From NCBI GenBank assembly GCA_030428885.1, contig JAUIEJ010000004.1:62001-126000 (forward strand): DNA of 64,000 nucleotides, given 5' to 3'. The notes under the pieces are model-generated. The model did no database searches and was not told the DNA's origin. It saw only the letters and a list, made by a program, of their open reading frames with translations. The DNA is from Gemmatimonadota bacterium (lineage in GTDB: Bacteria; Gemmatimonadota; Gemmatimonadetes; Longimicrobiales; Gaopeijiaceae). Below, piece by piece: positions 2,039 to 62,065 of this stretch. The position numbers and the translations under genes are program-made. Within the stretch, counting starts at the first letter, position 1, and every line of letters begins with the position of its first letter.

Positions 2039-4837
2039 TCAGTTGAACTCCCAGGACAGCCCGACGGAGATCGTCCGGCCGACCGAGTACTGTCGCTGCA
2101 CGCGCTCGAAGCCGTTGGCCGCCTGCAGGAACGTGTAGTCCTGATCCAGCAGGTTGGTGGCCTTCACCTTCGCCCGGGCGCCCCGTACCAGCGGGAACGC
2201 CACGGTGGCGTCGAGTGCGTTGCGGGGCTGCTCGAAGATGTCGGGCAGCCCGGAACCGCCGGCGGCGGTCAGTCGCTCGCCGAAACGGTTGTAGAAGAGT
2301 CCCGCCTCGAAGCCGGAGGGACTCGCGTAGTTGATGCCCGTGTTGAGCACGTAGGGGGCCTGGCCCTCCAGAGGGCGCGTCAGGTTCGTGGGTTGGTAGA
2401 TGCCCTCGGCCCGCACGTTCACCTCGGACTCGATGACGGAGAGATTGGCCGACAGCGAGACGTGCTCCAGCGCCTCGCTGAAGCGCCGCCCCGCCAACTG
2501 CACGTCGAACTCCAGGCCGAAGACCTGGCCGTCCAGGGCGTTCTGGAACGAGTAGGCCGACGACGCCGCGGCGATGAAGACCTGCTCGATGGGCGACGTC
2601 ATGTCCTTCATGAAGCCGCCGAACGAGATGATCTCCCCCGGGCCCGGGAACCAGTCGATCCGCAGGTCGGCGCTGACGATCTCGGCGGGCACCAGGAGCG
2701 GGTTTCCCACCAGCTGCCGGAGGCTCGTGGCCTCGGTGAACTGGAACGGGGCCAGCTCCCGGAACTCGGGACGATCCAGGGTGCGACTCCCGGCCGCCCG
2801 GATCTTCACGTTGTCGGAGGCCGAGTAGGTCAGGTTGATGGACGGGGCGAAGTCGGTCTGGGAGAGGTTGTTCAGATCCTCGCCCCGGGACGTCAGCACC
2901 AGGTCGTAGGTCTCGACCCGGGCACCGGCGATGGCCTCGAGCTTCTCCGTGACCGGCACGGTGACCATGAGGTAGCCGGCCACCCGCTCGTCGTCGGCCC
3001 CGTACACGTCACCGGGCTCCACCACCTCGTCGATGCGGAACTCGTTGAGTTCGTCGGGATTCGACGCCGTGACGGACCCCTGATCGAGGGCCGCGTCGAG
3101 ATCGGCGATGGTGTTCCCGAGGAAGTTCCAGTTCAGGCGCCGGGAGCCGAAGTCCCGGGTGCGGTTCCGGTAGGCCCCGCCGAACTTGATCGAGGCGTCC
3201 CCCGATCCGAATTCGAAGGGGAACTCCCAGTCGAGGCCGGCCGACACGTCGTCGTCCACCAGCTCGCTGAAGAAGTACCGGGCGCTCTCGGTGAAGTCGA
3301 GGAGGAAGTACTCCCCGTCGTCCTCGAGGTAGATGGTCTCCCGCATGAACGGCTCGTCGCGCTTGGCCCGGGCCGCCGACACCCGCCAGTCCAGGCGGGA
3401 GTCCATGAAGGTGAGGTGCTCACCGGAGAGCTGGCCCCAGAGCATGAGGCGCTCGACGAAACGGGCCCGCTCGTTGCGGATGTCGCCCCCGATGTCCTCG
3501 TCGTTGTTGCCGGTGAACATCCGGGCCTCGTCGTCGGTGTTCAGGTTCACCGTCGTCCGGAGGCTGATCTTCTGGTTCGGGTTCGGCTTCAGCGTGACGT
3601 TGCCGATGGTGCCCCACGACACCTCCCGGGTCCCCTTGGTGAACTCGTAGTCCACGTTGGGCGTGGAGATGTCGGCCGTGGGCTCCACGAAAGCTTCGGC
3701 CCGCCACTTCCGCTCGATCTCGCCCTCCCGGAGGGTGTACTTGTCGGAGTACGTGCCGGCGGCGAAAAAGCCGACCTCGCCGTCGTCGAACACCGCGGTG
3801 CTTCCCCCCACCGACGCGTCGAACGACCGGTTGAGGGGCGTGTCACCCGACGAGGGGGCGAAGGTGGGCGACGCGTTCTGGAGCGCCTGACCGATTTCCA
3901 CCAACTGGCCGGCGTCGCTGGGAAGGCGTTCCCCGCTCCGCACGTCCCCCATGATCCGCTCCATGACGTCGGGCTGAGCCCGGGTGCCGTCGTCGAGGCC
4001 CAGCCAATCCCGGCCGCCCCCGTCGTACGAGAGGAAGCCGTCCTGGAACTGGCTCACCGTGTTGAAGCTCGTGGACATCCCGAGGCGCACGGTGAAGCGG
4101 TTGGGGAAGTCCTTCGTCTGGATCTGGACCGCGCCGCCCGAGAAATCGGCCGGGAGGTCCGGCGTGTACGACTTCTGGGTCTGGAGGCTCTCCAGGAATC
4201 CCGAGGGGAAGAGGTCGAGAGGCACGACCTCCTTCTCGGGCTCGGGCGACGGCAGGGACGATCCGTTCAGCGACGTCTGGGAGTACCGCTCCCCCAGTCC
4301 CCGCACGAAGACGTACTTGTCGTCGGCCACCGTCACGCCGGTCATGCGCTTGGCCACGTCGGCGGCGTCGGAGTCGGGCCGCCGGGCGATGTCGGCCGCC
4401 CCCACCGATTCCACCAGGGAAGGAGCGGTGCGCCGCTGGTCCAGGAGGGCGGCGTTGCTCCCCGCCTCCCGTTCCGCCGAGATGGTGATCCCGGTGATCT
4501 CCACCGCCGACTCGTCCACCGAGACGTCCAGCGTGGTGACCTCGCCGGCGGCCACGGTCACGCCCGTGACCGTCTTGGTGGCGTAGCCGATGACCTGGAC
4601 CGTCACGTCGACGGAGCCGGCGGGGACGGCGTGGAGCACGTACCGGCCGTTCAGGTCGGACAGCACACCGATGGAGGTTCCCGCCACGAACACCTGCGCC
4701 TGCGACACCGGAGCTGCGTTGGCGGCATTGACGACCCGCCCGATGATTCGCCCGGTGGCCGCGTCCTGGGCAGCCGCCTGCAGGGGGAGAAGAACGACCC
4801 CCGTGGCGAGCACTCCGCGGATGAAGCTTCGCAACAT
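2039..4837 (-). CDS. TonB-dependent outer-membrane receptor with carboxypeptidase-regulatory-like domain
   Basis: A 932-residue receptor. A Sec signal peptide ends near Ala-Ala-Ala-Gln24. Residues about 28-108 form a CarboxypepD_reg-like Ig-type domain (GRVVNAANAAPVSQAQV). The plug follows at about 120-250 with the conserved VFVRGLGERYSQTSLNG stretch, then a long beta-barrel ending in ...VGLSWEFN with the usual aromatic near the C-terminus. It imports a ligand across the outer membrane using TonB-ExbBD energy. It is first in an operon with the FN3 lipoprotein and a further lipoprotein. Helically phased TTACC repeats upstream suggest control by an OmpR/PhoB-type regulator, so phosphate or an organophosphate is a possible substrate. 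That substrate idea is inference only. Confidence 0.92.
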   Translation of the reverse strand: MLRSFIRGVLATGVVLLPLQAAAQDAATGRIIGRVVNAANAAPVSQAQVFVAGTSIGVLSDLNGRYVLHAVPAGSVDVTVQVIGYATKTVTGVTVAAGEVTTLDVSVDESAVEITGITISAEREAGSNAALLDQRRTAPSLVESVGAADIARRPDSDAADVAKRMTGVTVADDKYVFVRGLGERYSQTSLNGSSLPSPEPEKEVVPLDLFPSGFLESLQTQKSYTPDLPADFSGGAVQIQTKDFPNRFTVRLGMSTSFNTVSQFQDGFLSYDGGGRDWLGLDDGTRAQPDVMERIMGDVRSGERLPSDAGQLVEIGQALQNASPTFAPSSGDTPLNRSFDASVGGSTAVFDDGEVGFFAAGTYSDKYTLREGEIERKWRAEAFVEPTADISTPNVDYEFTKGTREVSWGTIGNVTLKPNPNQKISLRTTVNLNTDDEARMFTGNNDEDIGGDIRNERARFVERLMLWGQLSGEHLTFMDSRLDWRVSAARAKRDEPFMRETIYLEDDGEYFLLDFTESARYFFSELVDDDVSAGLDWEFPFEFGSGDASIKFGGAYRNRTRDFGSRRLNWNFLGNTIADLDAALDQGSVTASNPDELNEFRIDEVVEPGDVYGADDERVAGYLMVTVPVTEKLEAIAGARVETYDLVLTSRGEDLNNLSQTDFAPSINLTYSASDNVKIRAAGSRTLDRPEFRELAPFQFTEATSLRQLVGNPLLVPAEIVSADLRIDWFPGPGEIISFGGFMKDMTSPIEQVFIAAASSAYSFQNALDGQVFGLEFDVQLAGRRFSEALEHVSLSANLSVIESEVNVRAEGIYQPTNLTRPLEGQAPYVLNTGINYASPSGFEAGLFYNRFGERLTAAGGSGLPDIFEQPRNALDATVAFPLVRGARAKVKATNLLDQDYTFLQAANGFERVQRQYSVGRTISVGLSWEFN

Positions 4838-6362: not shown

Positions 6363-9300
6363 TCACCCCTCCCGGAAGCGGATCCGGCTGGTCTCCAGCC
6401 ACCGGTAGAGGGTGGGCAGCACCAGGAGGGTGAGGAGCGTGGACGTGGCGATCCCGCCGATGACCACCGTGGCCAGCGGCCGCTGCAGCTCGGCGCCCGG
6501 CGAATGGGACAGGGCCATGGGCACGAAGCCGAAGCTCGCCGCCAGCGCCGTCATGAGCACGGGACGGAGCCGGGTGGCCGCGCCCCGCAGGATCGCGTCG
6601 TCCAGGGCCGCACCCCGCTCCCGGAGCTGGTTCACGTAGCTCACCATGACCACGCCGTTCAGCACCGCGATGCCGAACACGGCGATGAAGCCGATGATGG
6701 CCGAGGTGCTGAGGTTCAGCCCGGCGACCCACAACCCGCCGATCCCCCCCACCAGGGCGAAGGGCACGTTCAGCATGATGAGGGCGGCGTGCCGCATGGT
6801 GCCGAAGGCGGTGAAGAGGAGCAGGAAGATCACGATGATGGCCACCGGCACCAGGATCGCCAGTCGACGCACCGCGGTCTGCTGGTGCCGGTACTGGCCC
6901 CCCCATTCGAAGGCATAGCCCTCGGCCAACTCGATCTCCCGGGCCAGGACCCCGCTGGCTTCCTCCACGAAGCTCCCCACGTCCCGGCCCCGGATGTTGG
7001 CCCCCACCACCACCATGCGCTGACCTCCTTCGTGGGCGTAGGCCTCCGGGCTCTCCCGGCGCTCCACCAGGGCCACGGATTCCAGGGGCAGTAGTCCCCC
7101 GTCGTCGGTGGCCACCGGAAGGGCCCCCAGGAGCTCGGGATCCACGGCGTTGCCCGCAGGCAGGCGCACCACCACGTCGATGCGCCGGGGGCCGTCGACG
7201 ATCTCGGTGGCCACGGCGGCGCCCAGCGCCGCCTCGATCTGCCCGCCCACGTGGGCGCTGGAGAGGCCGTGGCGGGAGAGGGCGGCGCGATCGAGGCGCA
7301 CCCGCAACTCCGACACCCGGGCCGCCGAACTCACCTTCACGTCGGCGGCGCCGGGGATGCCCGAGATCAGGGCCTCCACCCGCCCGGCCAAGGCGGCGAG
7401 GCGATCGGGGTCGGGGCCGAAGATCTTCACCCCCACGTCGGTGGTGATGCCCGTCTCGGCCTCGTCCAGACGCATCTGGATGGGCTGGGTGAAGGCGTAT
7501 TCGAGCCCGGGCACCTCCTGGAGCACCGAATCCATGGCCGCCAGGAGGGCCGGCTTTCCGCCCTCGCGCCACTCGCCCCGGTCCCGGAGCTGGACGTAGG
7601 TATCCGACTCGTAGGTGCCCATGGCTTCGGTGGCCAGGTCGGGACGCCCCAGCTTGCTCACCACCTGGTCCACTTCGGGAAGCTCGAGCAGCCGGGCCTC
7701 CAGCGCCGACGAGAACTGTACGCCCTGCCCCAGGGCCGTGGAGGGCGGGCGGAGGCCCTGCACCAGCACGCTCCCCTCGTCGAGGCGGGGCATGAACTCG
7801 GACCCGAGGCGGGTGCCGCTCCAGAGGGCCGCCACCACCAGGATCGCCGCCGTGGCCGCCACCGGGACCGGTCGGGTCAGCGTGGAGGCCAGCAGCGCCT
7901 GATAGCGGTCCCGGAACCGATCGAATCGGGGCGTCTCGGGCTCCCGGGCGTTGAGGAGGAAGGCCCGGGCCGCCGCCGGCACGAAGGTGAGGGCCAGAAG
8001 CAGCGACCCCAGCACCGCGGCCGTGACCGTGAAGGCCATGGGCACGAACATCCGGCGCTCCGTCCCCGAGAGGGCGAAGATGGGAAGGTACACGGCCACG
8101 ATGATGCTGATGCCGAACACCACCGGGCGCCCCACCTCGGTGGCCGCCTGGGTCATGCGGGCCAGGGCCGATTCCTTCGAGGCCCCAGCCTCGGACTTCC
8201 GCATGATGTTCTCCACCATCACCACCGAGCCGTCCACCAGGAGTCCGAAGTCCAGCGCACCCAGGCTCATGAGGTTGGCCGAGTACCCGAAGATCCGCAT
8301 GGAGATGAAGGCCCACAGCATGGACAGCGGGATCACGAACGCCACGATGATGCTGGCGGCGAGGTTGCGGAGGAACGCCCACAACAGGATCACCACCAGG
8401 GTGGCCCCCAGGAGGAGGTTCTTCTCGATGGTGTGGGTCGTCTGCTCCACCAGGTTGGCCTGGTTGTAGAACGGCACCAGTTCGACCCCCCCGGGGAGGG
8501 TCGGAACGATGCGCTCGACCCGTTCCTCGATGGCGGCGATGACGTCCAGGGCGTTGGCGCCCTTCCGCATGATCACCATTCCCGCCACCACCTCGCCGAC
8601 GCCGTCCAGCGTCACGGCGCCCTGCCGAGGCAGGGGTCCACGCTCCACGGTGGCCACCTCGTGGAGGAGTACGGGGACTCCGTTGCGGGTGGCCACGGGC
8701 ACCTGGGCGAGATCCTCGAGCCCCGTGAGGCGTCCCTCACCCCGCACCACGTGCCGCTCGCCCCGGGCTTCGGTGTAGGTCCCGCCGAAGGTCCGGTTGT
8801 TGGCCGCCACGGCCTCCTGCAGGTCGTCCAGGGTGAGGCTGGACAGGTTGAGTCGCATGGGATCGGTGACCACGTGGTACTGCTCCACGAGACCGCCCCA
8901 GGAGTTGACTTCGGCCACCCCCTCCACCGTCCGGAGCTGGGGCGCGATGGACCAGTCCTGCAGCGTCTTCAGGTCCATGAGGTCCCAGGCGGGGTCCCGG
9001 GAGCGGAGCACGTACTGGAACACCTCTCCCATGGCGGTGGACACCGGGCCCAACTCGGGGCGCACCCCGGGGGGGAGGTCGGCGGTGATGCCGTTGAGCC
9101 GCTCCGCCACGACCTGACGGGCGAAGTAGGCGTCGACCCGATCCGCGAAGATCACCTGCACCATGCTCAGACCGAACTTCGTGGTGGAGCGCACCGACTC
9201 GGTGTTGGGCAGCCCCAGGAGGGACCGCTCGATGGGGAAGGTGACCAACTGCTCCACGTCTTCGGGGGCCATGCCCGGGGCCTCGGCGATGACCGACACC

Positions 9301-28463: not shown

Positions 28464-28886
28464 TCAGGCGCCTTCGTTCATGGAGGGAGACCGGTGGGCG
28501 GGGGCCCAGAGGGGGACCGGGCCGTACTGGGCCCACTGGGTGGGCGTCTCCCACACCCGGGTGTAGAGCAGTCCGCCGGCGAGTTCCCCGGGGAGGCGCT
28601 TCTTCAACTCGTCGTAGAACCACCGGGCCTGGTTCTCGGCACTCGTCTCCACGCCCTGGAACATGGGCAGGTCGTTGAGATTGTAGTGGTCCAGCATCTC
28701 GGCCAGATCCCGGAGCTCCCGCTTCAGATCCACGAAATCGAAGGCGATGCCGGCTTCGTTCAACTCGGCGGTCTGGACCGCGGCTTCCACCACGTAGCGG
28801 TGGCCATGGAGCCGCTCGCACTTGCCCTTGTAGTGCTCGAGGAAGTGGGCGGAGTCGTAGTGGGCCTGGACGCTGACGGTGTACAT
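28464..28886 (-). CDS. 6-carboxy-tetrahydropterin synthase / QueD-type PTPS homologue
   Basis: A 140-residue member of the 6-pyruvoyl-tetrahydropterin synthase superfamily. The zinc ligands are His14 (SAHF), His27 and His29 (LHGH); the catalytic Cys23 is three residues before the HGH, the C-x3-HGH spacing of QueD. QueD makes 6-carboxytetrahydropterin for queuosine and other deazapurines. It shares an operon with FolE and a second PTPS whose spacing is different, so the two probably act on the same triphosphate with different products. Confidence 0.85.
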   Translation of the reverse strand: MYTVSVQAHYDSAHFLEHYKGKCERLHGHRYVVEAAVQTAELNEAGIAFDFVDLKRELRDLAEMLDHYNLNDLPMFQGVETSAENQARWFYDELKKRLPGELAGGLLYTRVWETPTQWAQYGPVPLWAPAHRSPSMNEGA

Positions 28887-28892
28887 GGCGGA

Positions 28893-29606
28893 TCAGCCTC
28901 GTTCGATCTGCAGAAGGGGAATGCGGACGTCGTCGGGACGGCTCAGCACGAACGACACCGCCTCGGCCACGTCCTGGGGGCGGAGCATCTGGGCCCGCCC
29001 GGGAAGGTGGGGGTCGGCGTCGGGGTCCAGGGGGTCCCACAGCGGGGTGTCGGTGGCCGCCGGCTCCAGGAGCGTGGCCGCCACCCCCGTACCCCGGACC
29101 TCCTCCACCAGAACCTCGTGGAGCCCCCGGACGCCGAACTTCGACGCCCCGTAGGCGCCGTTGCCGGGAAAGCCCCGGCGGCCCGCCACCGATCCCACGT
29201 GGACGATGCGCCCGAAGCCCCGGTCCAGGAACCCGGGGAGGAGGGCCCGGAGCACCAGGAACGATCCCCGGAGATTGATGGAGACCATGCGGTCGAAGTC
29301 GGCCACCGACGTCTCGACGATGGGGGCCACGTCGAAGGCTCCGGCCGACTGCACCACTGCCCACGGCCCACCCCCGAGGCGGTCCTGGAGGGCGTCCAGG
29401 GCCGACCACACCGACGCTTCGTCGGAGAGGTCGGCGGGCCACACCGCGCCGCCGGACGTCCGGGCCAGGGTCTCGACGCTCGACGGATCCCGGCACAACA
29501 CGTGGACGCTGCCGCCGGCCTCGGCCACCGCCTCGGCCACCGCGCGCCCGATGCCCCGGCTGCCCCCCGTCACCAGGACCGAGCGCCCTGCGAGTCCACC
29601 CGTCAT
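28893..29606 (-). CDS. Short-chain dehydrogenase in pterin operon (possible sepiapterin-reductase-like)
   Basis: A 237-residue classical SDR. The NAD(P) loop is TGGSRGIG (13-20), and the catalytic set is Ser139, Tyr152 and Lys156 (YGASK). NADPH preference is suggested by the Arg/Ser in the loop. The ATG overlaps the folE stop by 4 bases and the next gene begins 6 bases downstream. With GTP cyclohydrolase I and a eukaryote-type PTPS in the same operon, it is placed to do the final ketone reductions of a tetrahydrobiopterin-like pathway. That assignment rests on context; the sequence alone only says SDR. Confidence 0.85.
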
Positions 29607-30193
29607 CGGCTGAGGGGGCGGTGCGACGCCATGGACAACCGCAGGAACTCGTCCCGGGTGGCCGGATCCTCCAGGAAGGCCCCCCGCATGGCCGACGTGA
29701 TGGTGACGGAGTTCTGCTTCTCCACCCCCCGCATCATCATGCAGAGATGGTGGGCCTCGATGATGACCCCCACACCCTGGGGCGAGACGATGTCCCACAG
29801 GGCCTGGGCGATCTGCTCGGTGAGGCGCTCCTGCACCTGGAACCGCCGACTGAACACCTCCACGAGACGAGCCGTCTTGGAGAGTCCCATGATCTGGCCG
29901 TTGGGGATGTAGGCCACGTGCACCTTCCCGAAGAACGGCAGGAGATGGTGCTCGCAGAGGGAGTACATCTCGATGTCCTTCACCAACACCATGTTGTGGT
30001 GCTGCTCGGCGAAGAGGGCGTCGCCGATGACCTCCTCGGGGGACGAACGGTACCCGTGGGTGAGGAAGCGCATGGCCTTCTCCACCCGCTCCGGGGTCTT
30101 GGCCATGCCCTCCCGCTCGGGGTCGTCGCCCAACCGGCGAATCATCTCGGCCACCAGGTCGGTGTAGGGGACCGACGAAAGGTCGAGGCTCAC
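29603..30193 (-). CDS. folE: GTP cyclohydrolase I (zinc-dependent, FolE)
   Basis: A 196-residue enzyme turning GTP into 7,8-dihydroneopterin triphosphate. The zinc site is Cys80 and His83 ([10 protein letters not shown]) with Cys151 ([11 protein letters not shown]), so this is the type IA zinc enzyme rather than FolE2. Conserved [18 protein letters not shown] and SAMRGAF follow. The GTG start overlaps the upstream PTPS stop as GTGA. In this operon its product probably feeds both PTPS-type enzymes as well as folate. Confidence 0.95.
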
Positions 30194-30630
30194 GCTTCGT
30201 CTCCAGTGGGGACCGGGTCCCCGGTGTATTCGACGTAGTTGCGGGGAGTCTCCCACAACACGATGCGTTCCAACGTCACGCCCCGGGGAAGCTGGTCCAC
30301 CAGGCGGTTCCAGATCGCCACCACGAGGTTTTCGGTGGTGGGCACCTGCCCGGCCAGCCAGGTCACCTCCACGTTGAGGTTTCGGTGATCCAGGTCGGTC
30401 ACCACCCGGGCCTCCACCAGGTCCCGCAGCACCTTCAGGTCGAGAACGTACCCCGTCTCGGGGTCCACCTCGCCCGCCACGGTGACGTCCATTTCGTAGT
30501 TGTGCCCGTGGCCGTGGGGGTTGGCGCATACGCCGAACACCCGGGCGTTGCGTTCGTCCGGCCAGTCGGGGCGGTAGAGGCGATGGGCGGAGTTCCAGTG
30601 AACCCGGCGAGTGACGCGCACGCGCGGCAT
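30190..30630 (-). CDS. 6-pyruvoyl-tetrahydropterin synthase, eukaryote-type spacing
   Basis: A 146-residue PTPS and the first gene of the pterin operon. The zinc ligands are His16, His41 and His43 and the catalytic cysteine is Cys35, five residues before the HGH ([12 protein letters not shown]). The same C-x5-HGH spacing and the following [13 protein letters not shown] stretch are seen in animal PTPS of tetrahydrobiopterin synthesis, whereas QueD has C-x3-HGH. It should convert dihydroneopterin triphosphate to 6-pyruvoyl-tetrahydropterin. It is coupled to folE by GTGA and divergent from the metal-locus gene at 30788. Confidence 0.88.
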
Positions 30631-30749
30631 CGATGCGACTCCGTGGGGTGTGGATGGGGATCGGGCCCGAGGTACCCGGAGACCGCGGGATCGATCCGGA
30701 GGCGCGCGCCGCGACGGGAACCCGCCGGCCCCATTCGGGTTGCAGAGGA

Positions 30750-30779
30750 TTGACCGCACCATCGGCGACGCCCTACACT
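30750..30779 (+). promoter_or_regulatory. Sigma-70-type promoter of the metal-receptor locus
   Basis: TTGACC (30750-30755) and TACACT (30774-30779) are separated by 18 bp. The -10 box ends 8 bases before the ATG at 30788, so transcription should begin at or next to the start codon. This is one of the best promoter matches in the window. Confidence 0.65.
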
Positions 30780-30787
30780 CGCGCGTC

Positions 30788-31138
30788 ATGAATCCTTCCC
30801 GCACTCCGAGTCTGCGCCTCCTCTGGGCCTTCCTGGCCCTGGTGCAGTTCTCCGTCACGGTCGGGGGCCCCCTGGTCGACGCCGCTCTCGAGCGGGGTTC
30901 GGACCGGGTCGTCCACATCGAGTCGGAGTCCGGAGACGAGTGCGGTGTGCACCACGACCACCTGTTCTGCCAGGTCTGCCGCACGGTGGCGCTGGCCGGA
31001 CGGGAATCGCCTCCGGTGCGCGTCCCCCGCTGCCCCATCCTGTCCGACGGCACCCTGGCGGTCCAGGCGACGGATCGAATTCCGTCGTCTCCCGGGAGCT
31101 TCGCGCCGGTGGGGTCCCGGGCTCCACCCCGAGCCTGA
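30788..31138 (+). CDS. Small His/Cys-rich envelope protein preceding ZnuD-like receptor (DUF2946-like)
   Basis: A 116-residue protein. A hydrophobic N-terminal segment (about 8-30, LRLLWAFLALVQFSVTVGG) is a signal peptide or anchor. The mature part has a compact metal-ligand cluster at about 50-67: CGVHHDHLFCQVC, with three Cys and three His. The arrangement of one hydrophobic helix followed by a His-rich stretch and C-x2-C recalls DUF2946 proteins found near metal receptors. It probably binds or senses zinc or copper in the envelope. It opens a four-gene plus-strand locus 161 bases before the receptor. Confidence 0.7.
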   Translation: MNPSRTPSLRLLWAFLALVQFSVTVGGPLVDAALERGSDRVVHIESESGDECGVHHDHLFCQVCRTVALAGRESPPVRVPRCPILSDGTLAVQATDRIPSSPGSFAPVGSRAPPRA

Positions 31139-31232
31139 CCCCGACTCCCATCCGTTCCGGACCTCCGCCGTCGACCTCGGGTCGAGGGCGAGCGCCCCGC
31201 TTCCCGTGAGGGTCGCAGGGTAGCGCGTTCAT

Positions 31233-31248
31233 CTCACCGCCCGGTGAG
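31233..31248 (+). promoter_or_regulatory. Interrupted palindrome upstream of ZnuD-like receptor
   Basis: CTCACCG-CC-CGGTGAG is a perfect 7-bp inverted repeat about 50 bases upstream of the receptor ATG. It could be an operator or, in RNA, a small hairpin. It does not resemble the AT-rich Zur consensus, and no promoter is obvious beside it. Confidence 0.3.
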
Positions 31249-31299
31249 GGGACTCGGAACGTGGTTTCGTGGACCCCATCCCCTCTGCCGGTGCTCGTC

Positions 31300-33540
31300 A
31301 TGTCGAACCGAATCCGTTCGTCCACAATCTACGCCTTGGCTGCGATCGTCATGGTCGCCGCCTCGGCTGCCCCCGTCGCCGGGCAGGATCCCGACGCCCC
31401 CCACGGCAGCGACGTCCACGGTGTGGTACGGGACGACGAGGGGCAGACCCTGGCGGCGGTGGCCATCCGGCTTCCGGCTCTCGGGCGCACCGAGTTGTCG
31501 CACCAGGACGGAACGTTCCACCTGGAGCGGGTGCCCGAAGGCGACCACGTGATCCTCTTCGAACGCATCGGCTACCGGACCCGGAGCATGACGGTGACGG
31601 TGCGCTCGGGCGAAACGACTCGTTTGGAGATCGTGCTGGAGCCGTCGGCTCTCGAGGTCCAGGGCTTCGTGGTGACGGGTGCGCCCACGGCGCGGTCCGG
31701 AGACCGGGTGATCCGGCCGGTGGAGGTGCTGTCGGGGCAGGAGCTCTCCCGTCGCCTCGAAGGCACGGTGGCCGCCACGTTGGAGTCCGAACCCGGTGTG
31801 GCCGCCGTGACCATGGGGCCGGCCACGGCGCGGCCCGTGATCCGGGGACTGGGCGGCGACCGGGTCCTCATGCTGGAAGACGGCGAGCGGGTGGGCGACG
31901 TGTCCAACGTCTCCACCGACCACGCCACGGCGGTGGACCCGGCGTCGGCCCAGCGCATCGAGGTGGTTCGAGGGCCGTCGGCGCTGCTTTACGGAAGCCA
32001 GGCCCTGGGGGGCGTGGTGAACGTGATCCGGGAGGAAGTGCCCCGCACGGTGCACCACGGGTTCCACACCAATCTGAGCCTCCAGGCCCAGACCGTGAAC
32101 GACGGGCTCGTAGGGTCGGCCACGGTGTTGTCGGGGCTGGGGGCCAACGTGGCCCTGCGTTTCGAGGGGGGACTCCGGACGTCGGGCGACCTGACCACGC
32201 CGGAGGGGTCGTTGAGCAACACCGGTGGCGACACCCGCAACCTGGCCGCCGGCGCGTCGTGGGTGGGGGAGCGGGGCCACATCGGTGCGGCGTACCGCTT
32301 CTACGGCAACGACTACGGGATTCCCGGCGGATTCGTGGGTGCCCACCCCACCGGCGTCGACATCGAGATGACCCGCCACGTGGTGAAGGGGGACGCCCAG
32401 GTACGGGCGGTGGGCCCCTTCGACGTGGTGGACGGGTCGGCGAGCCACACCCGGTACAACCACAAGGAGATCGAACCCGGCGGGATCCTGGGCACGGAGT
32501 ACGGGCTCTTCACCACCGCCGGTGAGGTGAAGGGGCGCCACGGCGCGCTGGGATTCCTCACCGGAGGCACCCTGGGCGTTCGGGCCCAGTTCGAACGCTT
32601 CGGATTCGGGGGCGGCCTCTCCACCCCCGACACCCGACGGTGGACGTTCTCCACCTACGCCCACGAGGAGGTGGATCTCGAGGACTGGACCGTGGAGGCC
32701 GGCGCTCGCTGGGATCGGGTCTCGGCCGACGTGCTGGACGAAGATCCCGACGCCTCCATCGGCAACGTCCGCGACCGGACCTTCGACGCCTTCAGCGGGT
32801 CGCTGGGGGTGCTGCGCCGTCTCTCGGGCGACGTCACCGTAGGGGCGAGTCTGGCCCGGGCCTTCCGGGCCCCGGACGTCAGCGAACTCTACTCCGAGGG
32901 CCCGCACCTGGCCTCGTACTCGTTCGAGGTGGGCAACCCGGAGCTGGACACCGAGGTGGGCACGGGCATCGATCTGTTCGTGCGCCTCGATCGAGGATCG
33001 GTGCGAGCCGAGGTGGCGGCGTTCCACAACGACGTGGCCGGCTACCTCTATCCCCGGGAGACGGGCGAGATCAGCCCCCGCACCCAGCTCCCCATCTATC
33101 AGTACACCGGGGCCGACGCCCGCCTCGTGGGACTCGAGGGGGGACTGGATCTGGCCCTCACGAGTCGGGTGGCCGTGGAAAGCACCGTGTCGTGGGTCCG
33201 GGGCACCCTCACCGACGACGACGAACCCCTGCCGTTCATTCCGCCCCTCAACGGGCGCTTGGGACTGAGGTACGACACGCCCTCGTGGTTCGTCGGCACC
33301 GAGGCCCGCATGGCCGCCGAGCAGGACCGGCTCGGCGAGTTCGAAACCCCCACCGACGGCTATCTCGTGCTGGGACTGTCGGGGGGACTCCGCACCACCC
33401 TCGCGGGACGCCTCCACAGCGTCACCCTGCGCCTCGACAACCTCACCGACGAGGCGTACCGCAATCATCTCTCCCGCACGAAAGAACTCATGCCCGAGGC
33501 GGGGCGGGGCGTGAGCCTCGTGTACCGCCTCGTCTTCTGA
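31300..33540 (+). CDS. ZnuD-like TonB-dependent receptor
   Basis: A 746-residue outer-membrane receptor. The signal peptide ends near Ala27-Gly-Gln; a CarboxypepD_reg-like domain spans about 38-115 and the plug about 120-240, with a ZnuD-type stretch (DGERVGDVSNVSTDHATAVD, then RIEVVRGPSALLYG). The barrel ends in ...VSLVYRLVF. The VSNxSxDHA and late NHLSRTKELMPEAGR segments resemble zinc receptors of the ZnuD group, which lack siderophore ligands. The ATG at 31300 gives a clean signal peptide. It is followed 35 bases later by two lipoprotein genes that probably help capture the same substrate. Zinc is inferred. Confidence 0.88.
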   Translation: MSNRIRSSTIYALAAIVMVAASAAPVAGQDPDAPHGSDVHGVVRDDEGQTLAAVAIRLPALGRTELSHQDGTFHLERVPEGDHVILFERIGYRTRSMTVTVRSGETTRLEIVLEPSALEVQGFVVTGAPTARSGDRVIRPVEVLSGQELSRRLEGTVAATLESEPGVAAVTMGPATARPVIRGLGGDRVLMLEDGERVGDVSNVSTDHATAVDPASAQRIEVVRGPSALLYGSQALGGVVNVIREEVPRTVHHGFHTNLSLQAQTVNDGLVGSATVLSGLGANVALRFEGGLRTSGDLTTPEGSLSNTGGDTRNLAAGASWVGERGHIGAAYRFYGNDYGIPGGFVGAHPTGVDIEMTRHVVKGDAQVRAVGPFDVVDGSASHTRYNHKEIEPGGILGTEYGLFTTAGEVKGRHGALGFLTGGTLGVRAQFERFGFGGGLSTPDTRRWTFSTYAHEEVDLEDWTVEAGARWDRVSADVLDEDPDASIGNVRDRTFDAFSGSLGVLRRLSGDVTVGASLARAFRAPDVSELYSEGPHLASYSFEVGNPELDTEVGTGIDLFVRLDRGSVRAEVAAFHNDVAGYLYPRETGEISPRTQLPIYQYTGADARLVGLEGGLDLALTSRVAVESTVSWVRGTLTDDDEPLPFIPPLNGRLGLRYDTPSWFVGTEARMAAEQDRLGEFETPTDGYLVLGLSGGLRTTLAGRLHSVTLRLDNLTDEAYRNHLSRTKELMPEAGRGVSLVYRLVF

Positions 33541-33575
33541 ATACCACAACGACAACGATTCCACAGGAGCACATC

Positions 33576-34046
33576 ATGAGCAGCAGCGCGTACCGCATGG
33601 CAGGATCGATCCTGGCCCTCACCGGCGTCCTGGCCCTTGGGGCCTGCGACGACGACCCGGTGGGCAACGAAGAGGAGCACCTGGAGCCCGTGGGTCTGGT
33701 CATTTCCACCGGCGGCGTCGATCTCGTCACCGTGAACGGCGCCACCGTCACCGGCTCGCTGAGCGTCGATGCGGGTCAGGAAACCGCCCACCTCGACGTG
33801 GAGTTCCTGGACGAGGACGGGGACCGCTTCACGCCCGACGAGGCCGACGAGTGGCTCCGGGTGACCATCGCCAACCCCGCCGTGGCCGATTTCGAGCAGG
33901 ATACGCCGGGAGAGTTCGGAGGCCACCTGCACGGGGAGTCGGCCGGCACGACGACGGCCGTGTTCGACATCATGCACGGCGCCGTGAACTCGTCGTCGGC
34001 CCACCCCGACTACACGTCCCCCGCCATTTCGGTGGTCATCAACTGA
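33576..34046 (+). CDS. Acidic-signal lipoprotein A, paralogue of the next gene
   Basis: A 156-residue lipoprotein with a strong AGGAG site 6 bases before the ATG. The signal peptide ends at Cys24 and is followed by Asp-Asp-Asp, a surface-export-like acidic tract. The mature part is a small beta-rich domain with several His residues (GGHLHG, IMHG, SAHPDY) and a WLRVTIANPAV block. The next gene encodes a paralogue of exactly the same length with the same blocks. Sitting directly after a ZnuD-like receptor, it is a candidate zinc-capturing surface lipoprotein. I recognise no named family. Confidence 0.75.
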   Translation: MSSSAYRMAGSILALTGVLALGACDDDPVGNEEEHLEPVGLVISTGGVDLVTVNGATVTGSLSVDAGQETAHLDVEFLDEDGDRFTPDEADEWLRVTIANPAVADFEQDTPGEFGGHLHGESAGTTTAVFDIMHGAVNSSSAHPDYTSPAISVVIN

Positions 34047-34059
34047 CGGGTGAGCCCGG

Positions 34060-34088
34060 TCCGGCCGGAGGTAACATGTCCGGCCGGA
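34060..34088 (+). repeat. Two palindromes forming an inter-lipoprotein hairpin
   Basis: TCCGGCCGGA occurs at 34060-34069 and again at 34079-34088, between the paralogous lipoprotein genes. Each copy is itself a perfect palindrome, and together they can form a 10-bp stem with a 9-base loop. No T-run follows, so it may tune the relative levels of the two lipoproteins rather than end transcription. Confidence 0.5.
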
Positions 34089-34146
34089 TCGGGTATCTAC
34101 CAAGGACCGATCGCTCCGTCTCCGGCACACCTTCCCTGGACTGAAC

Positions 34147-34617
34147 ATGATGCGTCGCCTCCCCCGCCCCACCGTTCTCGCCCTCGTCGCTGCGACGGCC
34201 CTCGTCGGCGCCGCCTGCGGGGACGACCCCACCGGCAACGAGGGGCACCCGGATCCGTCGGGCCTGGTGGTTCTGAGCGGCGGGGTCGACGTGGTGGAGG
34301 TCCGGGGCCTGGGGATCATCGGCTCCTTCGCCGTGTCCGAGGGCGGCACCTCGGCCGACTACCAGATCCAGCTCATCGATCAGCAGGGCAACCGATACAG
34401 CCCCACCGCCGCCGATCAGTGGCTCCGGGTGATCGTCGCCAATCCCGCCGTGGCCCAGTGGGTCCAGGACGACGTGGGGGAGTGGGGCGGCCGGCTGGAA
34501 GGTCTCACCGGAGGAACCACCACCATCGGGTTCGACCTCATGCACGGTCCCGTGGGCGACGAGGCGGCGTCCCACTTCGACTACCGCACGCCCAACATCC
34601 CGGTCCTGGTGAACTGA
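34147..34617 (+). CDS. Acidic-signal lipoprotein B, paralogue of the preceding gene
   Basis: A 156-residue lipoprotein; the ATG could be 34147 or the adjacent 34150. The signal peptide ends at Cys24, followed by Gly-Asp-Asp. It shares with lipoprotein A the blocks SGLVVLSGGVDVVEV, QWLRVIVANPAVA, GGTTT, LMHG and a terminal H-x-DY-x5-IPV motif, but has fewer His in the middle. A tandem duplication followed by divergence is the simplest origin. It is the fourth and last clear gene of the metal-receptor locus; 100 bases and a hairpin separate it from its paralogue. Confidence 0.75.
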   Translation: MMRRLPRPTVLALVAATALVGAACGDDPTGNEGHPDPSGLVVLSGGVDVVEVRGLGIIGSFAVSEGGTSADYQIQLIDQQGNRYSPTAADQWLRVIVANPAVAQWVQDDVGEWGGRLEGLTGGTTTIGFDLMHGPVGDEAASHFDYRTPNIPVLVN

Positions 34618-34625
34618 CGGGCCTC

Positions 34626-34760
34626 ATGCGTACGAAAAAGGGCCGGCGCCCCCCGAAGGAAGACGCCGGCCCCGAGTACGCATCGGAAGAAATTATTGAA
34701 GCCCGGATGAAATCGTGTGGTAACCTCCCCACTGCGTTCGCCGTCCTCGTAGAGGCGTGA
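34626..34760 (+). CDS. Possible 44-residue basic protein
   Basis: A short open frame with an ATG 8 bases after the lipoprotein B stop. The product would start MRTKKGRRPPKEDAGPEY and end EARMKSCGNLPTAFAVLVEA. Codon use is less GC-biased than the neighbours. It overlaps the terminator hairpin described next and has no clear ribosome site, so it may be chance. Confidence 0.22.
   Translation: MRTKKGRRPPKEDAGPEYASEEIIEARMKSCGNLPTAFAVLVEA
34635..34672 (-). terminator. Intrinsic terminator, minus strand
   Basis: A 9-bp stem (GGGCCGGCG with CGCCGGCCC, loop 15 bases) is preceded on the plus strand by AAAAA, which on the minus strand is a T5 run right after the hairpin. It would end transcripts of the endonuclease IV gene about 210 bases beyond its stop and could also block plus-strand readthrough. 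Confidence 0.65.
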
Positions 34761-61876: not shown

Positions 61877-62065
61877 TCGCGGGATCGGGGTCGTTGCTCC
61901 ATTCCGAATCGCCACCCCGGCGTCCTCGTGCTGAATCGACGCTCACGGGCGGGCATACGACCGGGAATCCGGAGCGGGCGCCGAAGACGTAAATGCCACC
62001 GACGTCGCGGTTTGTGGCGGCCATCGGCGACATCGCCGAGCCGTGGGCGCCTCGGGCACGGAGGT

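Follow-up and report, generated by a model that had tools for sequence, protein, structure and literature searches.

This study concerns four consecutive plus-strand genes in the genome of a Gemmatimonadota bacterium (assembly GCA_030428885.1, 5.39 Mb), discussed here as a candidate zinc-uptake operon. The genes lie on contig JAUIEJ010000004.1 within the 64,000-nucleotide stretch that was analysed (positions 62,001 to 126,000, forward strand; hereafter the window), and encode a small exported peptide, which we call P1, a ZnuD-type TonB-dependent receptor, and two lipoproteins. All four open reading frames (ORFs) listed at this place in an initial annotation, made from the letters alone, were confirmed. 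P1, receptor and lipoprotein form a set that recurs across the family and likewise in distant relatives of the same class. The features of the locus, all on the plus strand, are as follows.

30750–30779, plus strand: sigma-70-like promoter TTGACC-18-TACACT, directly 5' of P1 (1 found versus 0.1 expected in shuffled sequence)
30788–31138, plus strand: P1 gene, 116 amino acids, with a signal peptide and the cluster CGVHHDHLFCQVC; putative metal-sensing arrest-peptide upstream ORF (uORF), CruR/DUF2946-like
30941–30979, plus strand: putative P1 metal-site motif C52-GV-HHDH-LF-C61-QV-C64, from an alignment of 22
31118–31129, plus strand: putative P1 arrest motif R111-A-P-P, two residues before the stop
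31139–31299, plus strand: 161-bp intergenic gap between P1 and the receptor; P1 end plus gap enriched in C over G
31300–33540, plus strand: receptor gene, 746 amino acids, with a VSNVSTDHA stretch; ZnuD-like TonB-dependent receptor
31918–31923, plus strand: receptor D207-H208, aligned with ZnuD Asp99-His100
32467–32469, plus strand: receptor E390, aligned with ZnuD Glu340
32905–32907, plus strand: receptor H536, aligned with ZnuD His499
33576–34046, plus strand: lipoprotein 1 (LIP), 156 amino acids, lipobox ..AC-DDD, lipid Cys24, predicted Ig-like fold; candidate ligands H35, H134, H143 and D145
34147–34617, plus strand: lipoprotein 2, 156 amino acids, lipobox ..AC-GDD; tandem paralogue that keeps MHG...H-x-D and lacks GHLHG

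The plan of the operon resembles that of a known copper-responsive system. In Bordetella pertussis, the DUF2946 protein CruR (bp2923) carries CXXC and RAPP motifs separated by 45 residues and lies 162 bp ahead of a TonB receptor gene; RAPP is required, regulation is Rho-dependent, and copper on nascent CruR is proposed to relieve arrest and so lead to Rho termination (PMC9426467). Arrest by CruR was later demonstrated in vitro (PMC12992588), and ribosome arrest has been described for both the RAPP and the RGPP motif (PMC10951233, PMC12992588). Like the CruR-bfrG/crtA-bp2921 operon (PMC9426467, PMC12914433), the window operon has an exported small Cys protein ending in RAPP in first place, a TonB receptor in second and an accessory gene in third, and the end of the peptide is C-rich in both. 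The gaps are nearly equal (162 versus 161 bp), as are the Cys-to-Arg distances (49 residues in CruR, 50 in P1), and 46 residues lie between CQVC and RAPP in P1. The two systems differ in that CruR has CXXC for copper whereas most relatives of P1 have C-x3-H-x-H-x2-C, in the genes downstream (a copper receptor and a PepSY_TM protein versus a ZnuD-type receptor and lipoproteins), and in the additional occurrence of P1 relatives at the head of ZnuA-ABC3 operons.

Conservation within P1 is concentrated in these two motifs. Across P1 and 21 relatives invariance is limited to six positions (C52, H56, C61, R111, P113 and P114), and H58 is kept in at least 90%, giving C-x3-H-x-H-x2-C as the pattern of the putative metal site and R[AG]PP as that of the arrest motif. 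A Cys-bearing ORF ending in R[AG]PP lies ahead of 58 of 69 receptors that carry the Asp-His-Glu-His (DHEH) zinc site described below, and background ORFs with this ending number 114 of 12,229. For at least four of the 11 receptors without such an ORF (L034, L048, L068 and L148), a profile search did find a P1. In 46 of the 58 upstream peptides the motif stands two residues before the stop. Comparison of the P1 profile with an alignment that was seeded from DUF2946 loci at class level, and that contained some wrong ORFs, gave 90% probability. Judged from sequence, P1 is probably a regulatory uORF similar to CruR/DUF2946.

The initial annotation had counted this small His/Cys protein as part of the metal-capture apparatus itself. 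A secreted metal-binding protein acting after its synthesis, as a metallochaperone with an incidental RAPP, would indeed be expected to have a signal peptide and a His/Cys cluster and to belong to the operon, as P1 does. However, a metallochaperone would not account for an Arg and two Pro that are invariant two residues from the stop and form part of a known arrest motif, for their fixed distance from the metal motif, or for the poor conservation of the remaining mature protein, and we regard this explanation as very improbable. The RAPP/RGPP end, the fixed spacing, the leading position and the recurrence ahead of ZnuA-ABC3 operons instead point to a regulatory nascent peptide, and P1 is very likely an arrest peptide.

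Other regulatory elements were also sought. The promoter 5' of P1 is the sole sigma-70-like promoter found in the region. An Rfam scan over the window gave zero matches, and therefore no known riboswitch, and a Zur-box search 5' of P1 in the window found no AT-rich palindrome. The excess of C over G is greater in P1 end plus gap than in the receptor gene at 22 of 23 loci, which is weakly compatible with a Rho-dependent terminator but is not proof of one.

The second gene encodes a receptor with CarbopepD_reg_2, plug and TonB barrel domains (Pfam). Its closest match in the Protein Data Bank is ZnuD of Neisseria (E 6e-39; 1.5e-61 with the group profile), and the best NCBIfam model is that of ZnuD (NF038289; 235 bits, E 1.9e-69), whose curated cut-off of 950 bits is not reached. 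The high-affinity zinc site of ZnuD consists of Asp99, His100, Glu340 and His499 (PMC4557270). In two alignments these ligands fall on D207, H208, E390 and H536 of the window receptor, and all 74 unique receptors of the group have these four residues, which bears out the initial description of the receptor as ZnuD-like. Of 41 further TonB receptors at the same loci, none has Asp-His at the plug position; this control is partial because 18 of the 41 are unaligned there. The window receptor thus shares with ZnuD of Neisseria meningitidis (4RDR; PMC4557270) the TonB receptor architecture, the DHEH site in plug and barrel, and the lack of metallophore genes seen beside it. In contrast to ZnuD, it has an extra N-terminal CarbopepD domain, lipoprotein partners and an upstream RAPP peptide, and it does not have the His/Asp-rich extracellular capture clusters (at most three His in any 20 residues). 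Because of the score and the missing loops we call it ZnuD-type rather than a member of NF038289. Its predicted structure has a mean pLDDT (predicted local distance difference test score) of 61, with the plug below 50, and was therefore not used for site geometry. We consider it highly probable that the receptor imports zinc. Nine proteobacterial ZnuD homologues on plasmids also have DHEH, and a RAPP ORF lies upstream of none. A reading of the receptor as an OprC/CrtA-like copper transporter was rejected on its metal-site residues and the operon contents; the zinc ligands are absent from OprC.

P1-like peptides are not confined to receptor operons, and the strongest evidence on the metal lies beyond the window. 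A second P1-like ORF in the window's genome (C4:151812-152123, locus L226) stands first in an operon whose further genes encode a porin-like protein, ZnuA (PF01297, E 2.9e-41) and an ABC-3 permease (PF00950, E 9.8e-25). The NCBIfam models nearest to this ZnuA and permease are the zinc proteins AztC and AztB, which rank ahead of manganese models and score below their own cut-offs. Searching the family with P1 yielded 20 P1-porin-ZnuA(-ABC3) loci, that of the window's genome included. All 20 Znu-type peptides have C-x2-6-H-[DN]-H-x2-C, and in all 20 the last Cys is exactly 46 residues from the Arg. The porin-like outer-membrane protein between peptide and ZnuA (L226, 5856-7250; C-terminus GPHKHETY) occurs likewise in the other such loci. 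It has no Pfam or NCBIfam match and is perhaps a zinc porin. At five more loci (L268, L270, L280, L283 and L284) the gene headed by a P1-like peptide is a ZnuD-type receptor, and a lipoprotein is absent.

One alternative to zinc is copper, in which case P1 would be an ordinary CruR with CQVC as its copper sensor, and copper would be transported by the receptor and bound by the lipoproteins. P1 does match DUF2946/CruR in plan, spacing and gap length, CQVC is present in the window peptide, and the relatives of CruR and CutF mostly head copper operons. However, CXXC is absent from 44 of 58 peptides of the window's group, and these 44 keep C/H/H/C at fixed spacing. The four zinc ligands of ZnuD are all present in the receptor, whose metal site aligns poorly with that of OprC. 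Sister peptides are found at the head of ZnuA-ABC3 operons, and the recurrent neighbours include no recognised copper gene. A copper operon is accordingly improbable. The ZnuA-ABC3 sister loci, the loss of CXXC and the P1-like peptides ahead of ZnuD-type receptors without lipoproteins together favour zinc over copper, and P1 likely answers to zinc, with manganese, iron, nickel and cobalt as less likely candidates. CutF and CutF-like proteins share with P1 a signal peptide, a Cys/His metal motif, a C-terminal Pro-rich motif and action on a downstream gene; CutF differs in acting on copper and in enhancing a stalling-like process (PMC9973294). Those CutF-like proteins that precede HupE/UreJ and have His motifs alone have been suggested to sense nickel or cobalt (PMC9973294), so variety of metals within the class is an existing idea. 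Zinc is unmentioned in that report and in those on CruR (PMC9973294, PMC9426467, PMC12992588).

A haem or iron operon was considered on the evidence of the receptor and of neighbouring genes. ZnuD itself was once mistaken for a haem receptor, although the purified protein binds zinc and not haem (PMC4557270). The window receptor contains FRAP and NPEL-like motifs, and the haem-receptor model TIGR01785 is its second-best NCBIfam match, clearly behind ZnuD (181 versus 235 bits). A FUR-family gene lies close to about nine loci, with Fur-like boxes in L158 and L161, and 3' of the receptor five loci (L042, L111, L120, L135 and L158) encode a FeoB-like (Gate) membrane protein together with a Pyr_redox_3 flavoprotein, which may be a metal route through the inner membrane. 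Against haem or iron stand the invariant zinc-site Asp and Glu alongside two His, the link to ZnuA-ABC3, and the lack of any recognised haem-handling gene among recurrent neighbours. We consider a haem or iron role quite unlikely, at about the level of copper. A perfect palindrome, TTGAGAATCTGTTCTCAA, is found ahead of the peptide-less receptors of L057 and L058, near 4121-4146. Fur-type boxes were seen solely at loci that have a FUR gene and no uORF. The presence of such a box, or of this palindrome, where P1 is missing looks like a swap of regulators, which supports a regulatory role for P1.

The two lipoproteins are tandem paralogues, as the initial annotation had recognised (48% identity over 149 amino acids, E 2e-43), and MHG and H-x-DY are found in both. 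Pfam and NCBIfam scans of the lipoproteins gave nothing above threshold, and a plasmid search with the lipoprotein gave no match. In the scans made here the family is confined to Gemmatimonadota, with relatives in 34 of 96 genomes of the taxonomic family and, by profile, in 72 of 249 genomes of the phylum. The carriers are metagenome-assembled genomes (MAGs) of Longimicrobiales, Gemmatimonadales, Palauibacter and others. Four MAGs titled Rhodospirillaceae or Gammaproteobacteria (L108, L124, L137 and L138) also have the operon or the lipoprotein; these titles are probably binning or naming errors for mislabelled Gemmatimonadota.

Linkage of lipoprotein to receptor was counted for 88 distinct lipoproteins with enough flanking DNA. 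A DHEH receptor adjoins 73 of them, upstream in 71 cases (67 within 300 nucleotides) and downstream in two. The link is also kept for barely recognisable lipoproteins from other families of the class (L212, L213, L215, L216, L218 and L219). Lipid Cys24 is invariant, and among 95 lipoprotein domains His134 and His143 are each conserved in 96%, Asp145 in 95% and His35 in 91%. The linkage idea of the initial annotation, that homologues follow ZnuD-like receptors and share His ligands, passes its own test on these counts. Its emphasis on Asp-rich residues directly after the lipid Cys holds for both window proteins and does not extend to the family; relatives begin CESSTEP, CSDTT and similar, so this start is not a conserved signal.

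The AlphaFold model of the lipoprotein (mean pLDDT 87.6) is all-beta with an Ig-like fold. His134 lies at the end of one strand and His143 and Asp145 at the start of the next, and the loop around them is therefore a candidate metal site in this model. The nearest folds are Big-type domains, namely domain 5 of the S-layer protein SbsC (Z 10.7, root-mean-square deviation 2.1 over 89 residues) and Leptospira LigA (Z 9.3). These share about 20% identity or less with the lipoprotein, no metal role is claimed for them, and a shared fold shows no function. The VIA-align structure matches of LIP listed no metal-binding lipoprotein family, an absence that excludes nothing.

Surface lipoprotein-receptor pairs are known for vitamin B12 and other nutrients, as in BtuG-BtuB (PMC10404256, PMC7857515).

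HmuY and TbpB are further lipoproteins that pair with TonB receptors at the surface. As in the window, a receptor gene is paired with a lipoprotein gene in these systems; the proteins and ligands are different, and their capture-then-hand-over is a precedent for the role proposed here. Alternatively, the lipoproteins may not be capture partners but may face the periplasm or the surface as zinc buffers, receptor-assembly factors or plugs that are merely co-regulated. Some lipoproteins do stand alone with their own uORF (L114, L217 and L066) or without a nearby receptor, five ZnuD-type receptors manage without one, and we know of no surface-export signal for lipoproteins of Gemmatimonadota. However, 67 of the 88 immediately adjoin the receptor, and the His and Asp residues are kept in receptor-linked copies while the His134/His143 pair is lost in lone distant paralogues without a receptor (L044 in G085, L069 in G004 and L071 on C13 of the window genome). 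We consider a non-partner role the less probable explanation, and give capture of zinc for the receptor an even chance.

Taken as a whole, a zinc-acquisition operon with an arrest-peptide switch, a ZnuD-type receptor and lipoprotein zinc delivery is somewhat more probable than not, and we favour it. Based on the CruR and RAPP literature and the conserved anatomy of the locus, ribosomes translating P1 under zinc scarcity would stall at the C-terminal RAPP and shield the message from Rho, allowing transcription of the receptor and lipoprotein genes. With ample zinc, the metal would bind the nascent C-x3-H-x-H-x2-C site, the arrest would be released and transcription would end in the 161-bp gap. 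The receptor, ZnuD-type by sequence, would take the ion across the outer membrane through its DHEH site. The Ig-like lipoproteins, given their association with the receptor, may bind zinc through His134, His143 and Asp145 (and His35) and pass it on to the receptor, and may thereby stand in for the His/Asp-rich capture loop of Neisseria ZnuD. Loops very rich in His and Asp occur in two of the five receptors without lipoproteins (L280 and L283), and mainly acidic loops in the other three; since only two are strikingly His/Asp-rich, the replacement stays a suggestion.

Several observations weigh against this proposal. P1 scores 12.5 bits (E 0.27) against Pfam DUF2946 (PF11162), below the gathering score of 23.7. 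CXXC, the copper motif of CruR, is kept in several related peptides (CQVC in the window, and class-level relatives), so metal specificity is unproven by motif. L158 and L161 carry a FUR gene in place of the peptide, with a Fur-type palindrome immediately 5' of the receptor; such boxes do not discriminate zinc from iron. Fifteen of the 88 lipoproteins do not adjoin a DHEH receptor, and the Ig-like fold is a common scaffold whose top matches have no metal-binding precedent. Sequence directly shows the order of the genes, the residues at the receptor's site, the linkage of the lipoproteins with their conserved His and Asp, the motifs and spacing of P1, and the second type of operon; arrest, zinc sensing, the part played by Rho, zinc binding, hand-over and the surface location of the lipoproteins are inferred for all members.

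Zinc-uptake genes are normally described as controlled by Zur at the DNA level. As a P1-like peptide also heads the inner-membrane ZnuA-ABC3 operon in the window genome, such peptides would govern zinc importers of both membranes. By analogy with CruR, we infer that P1 is a zinc-responsive variant of that copper-responsive peptide, controlling zinc uptake. We tentatively suggest, at slightly less than an even chance, that Gemmatimonadota run much of their zinc uptake by zinc-sensing arrest peptides heading ZnuD-type and ZnuA-ABC3 operons, in place of or beside Zur, with the receptor fed in trans by dedicated Ig-fold lipoproteins. If true, a zinc-reading nascent peptide would broaden CruR-type control beyond copper to include zinc. 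The choice of metal is directly testable, because the peptides differ in the residues expected to set specificity (CXXC versus C-x3-H-x-H-x2-C). If ZnuD does have a lipoprotein partner, zinc would join the few nutrients (B12, haem, transferrin iron and glycans) taken up by lipoprotein-receptor pairs. A literature search that covered few subscription journals found no zinc-responsive arrest peptide and no lipoprotein that partners ZnuD.

Further variations were seen at individual loci. At L114 (4627-6483; same place in L208), P1 and a lipoprotein without a receptor lie divergent from a ZIP zinc-transporter gene. ZIP was rejected as a general neighbour, since only L114 is convincing and most operon-bearing genomes have no Pfam Zip match. 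L066 (4894-7720) encodes a lipoprotein with four fused domain copies (555 amino acids) and has a second RAPP peptide, of the CXXC type, between receptor and lipoprotein (7199-7720). In L037 (4937-6060), an IS3-type transposase pair is inserted between receptor and lipoprotein, and the lipoprotein frame is intact.

Two features flank the operon in the window.

34639–34673, no strand assigned: 16-pair hairpin just 3' of lipoprotein 2, terminator-like on the minus strand; weak (1 found versus 1.2 expected in shuffled sequence)
28464–30700, minus strand, divergent from the zinc operon: consecutive genes, two of them QueD/PTPS-like, one for an SDR-type reductase and one for GTP cyclohydrolase I (CEHH motif), a set that resembles the tetrahydrobiopterin pathway

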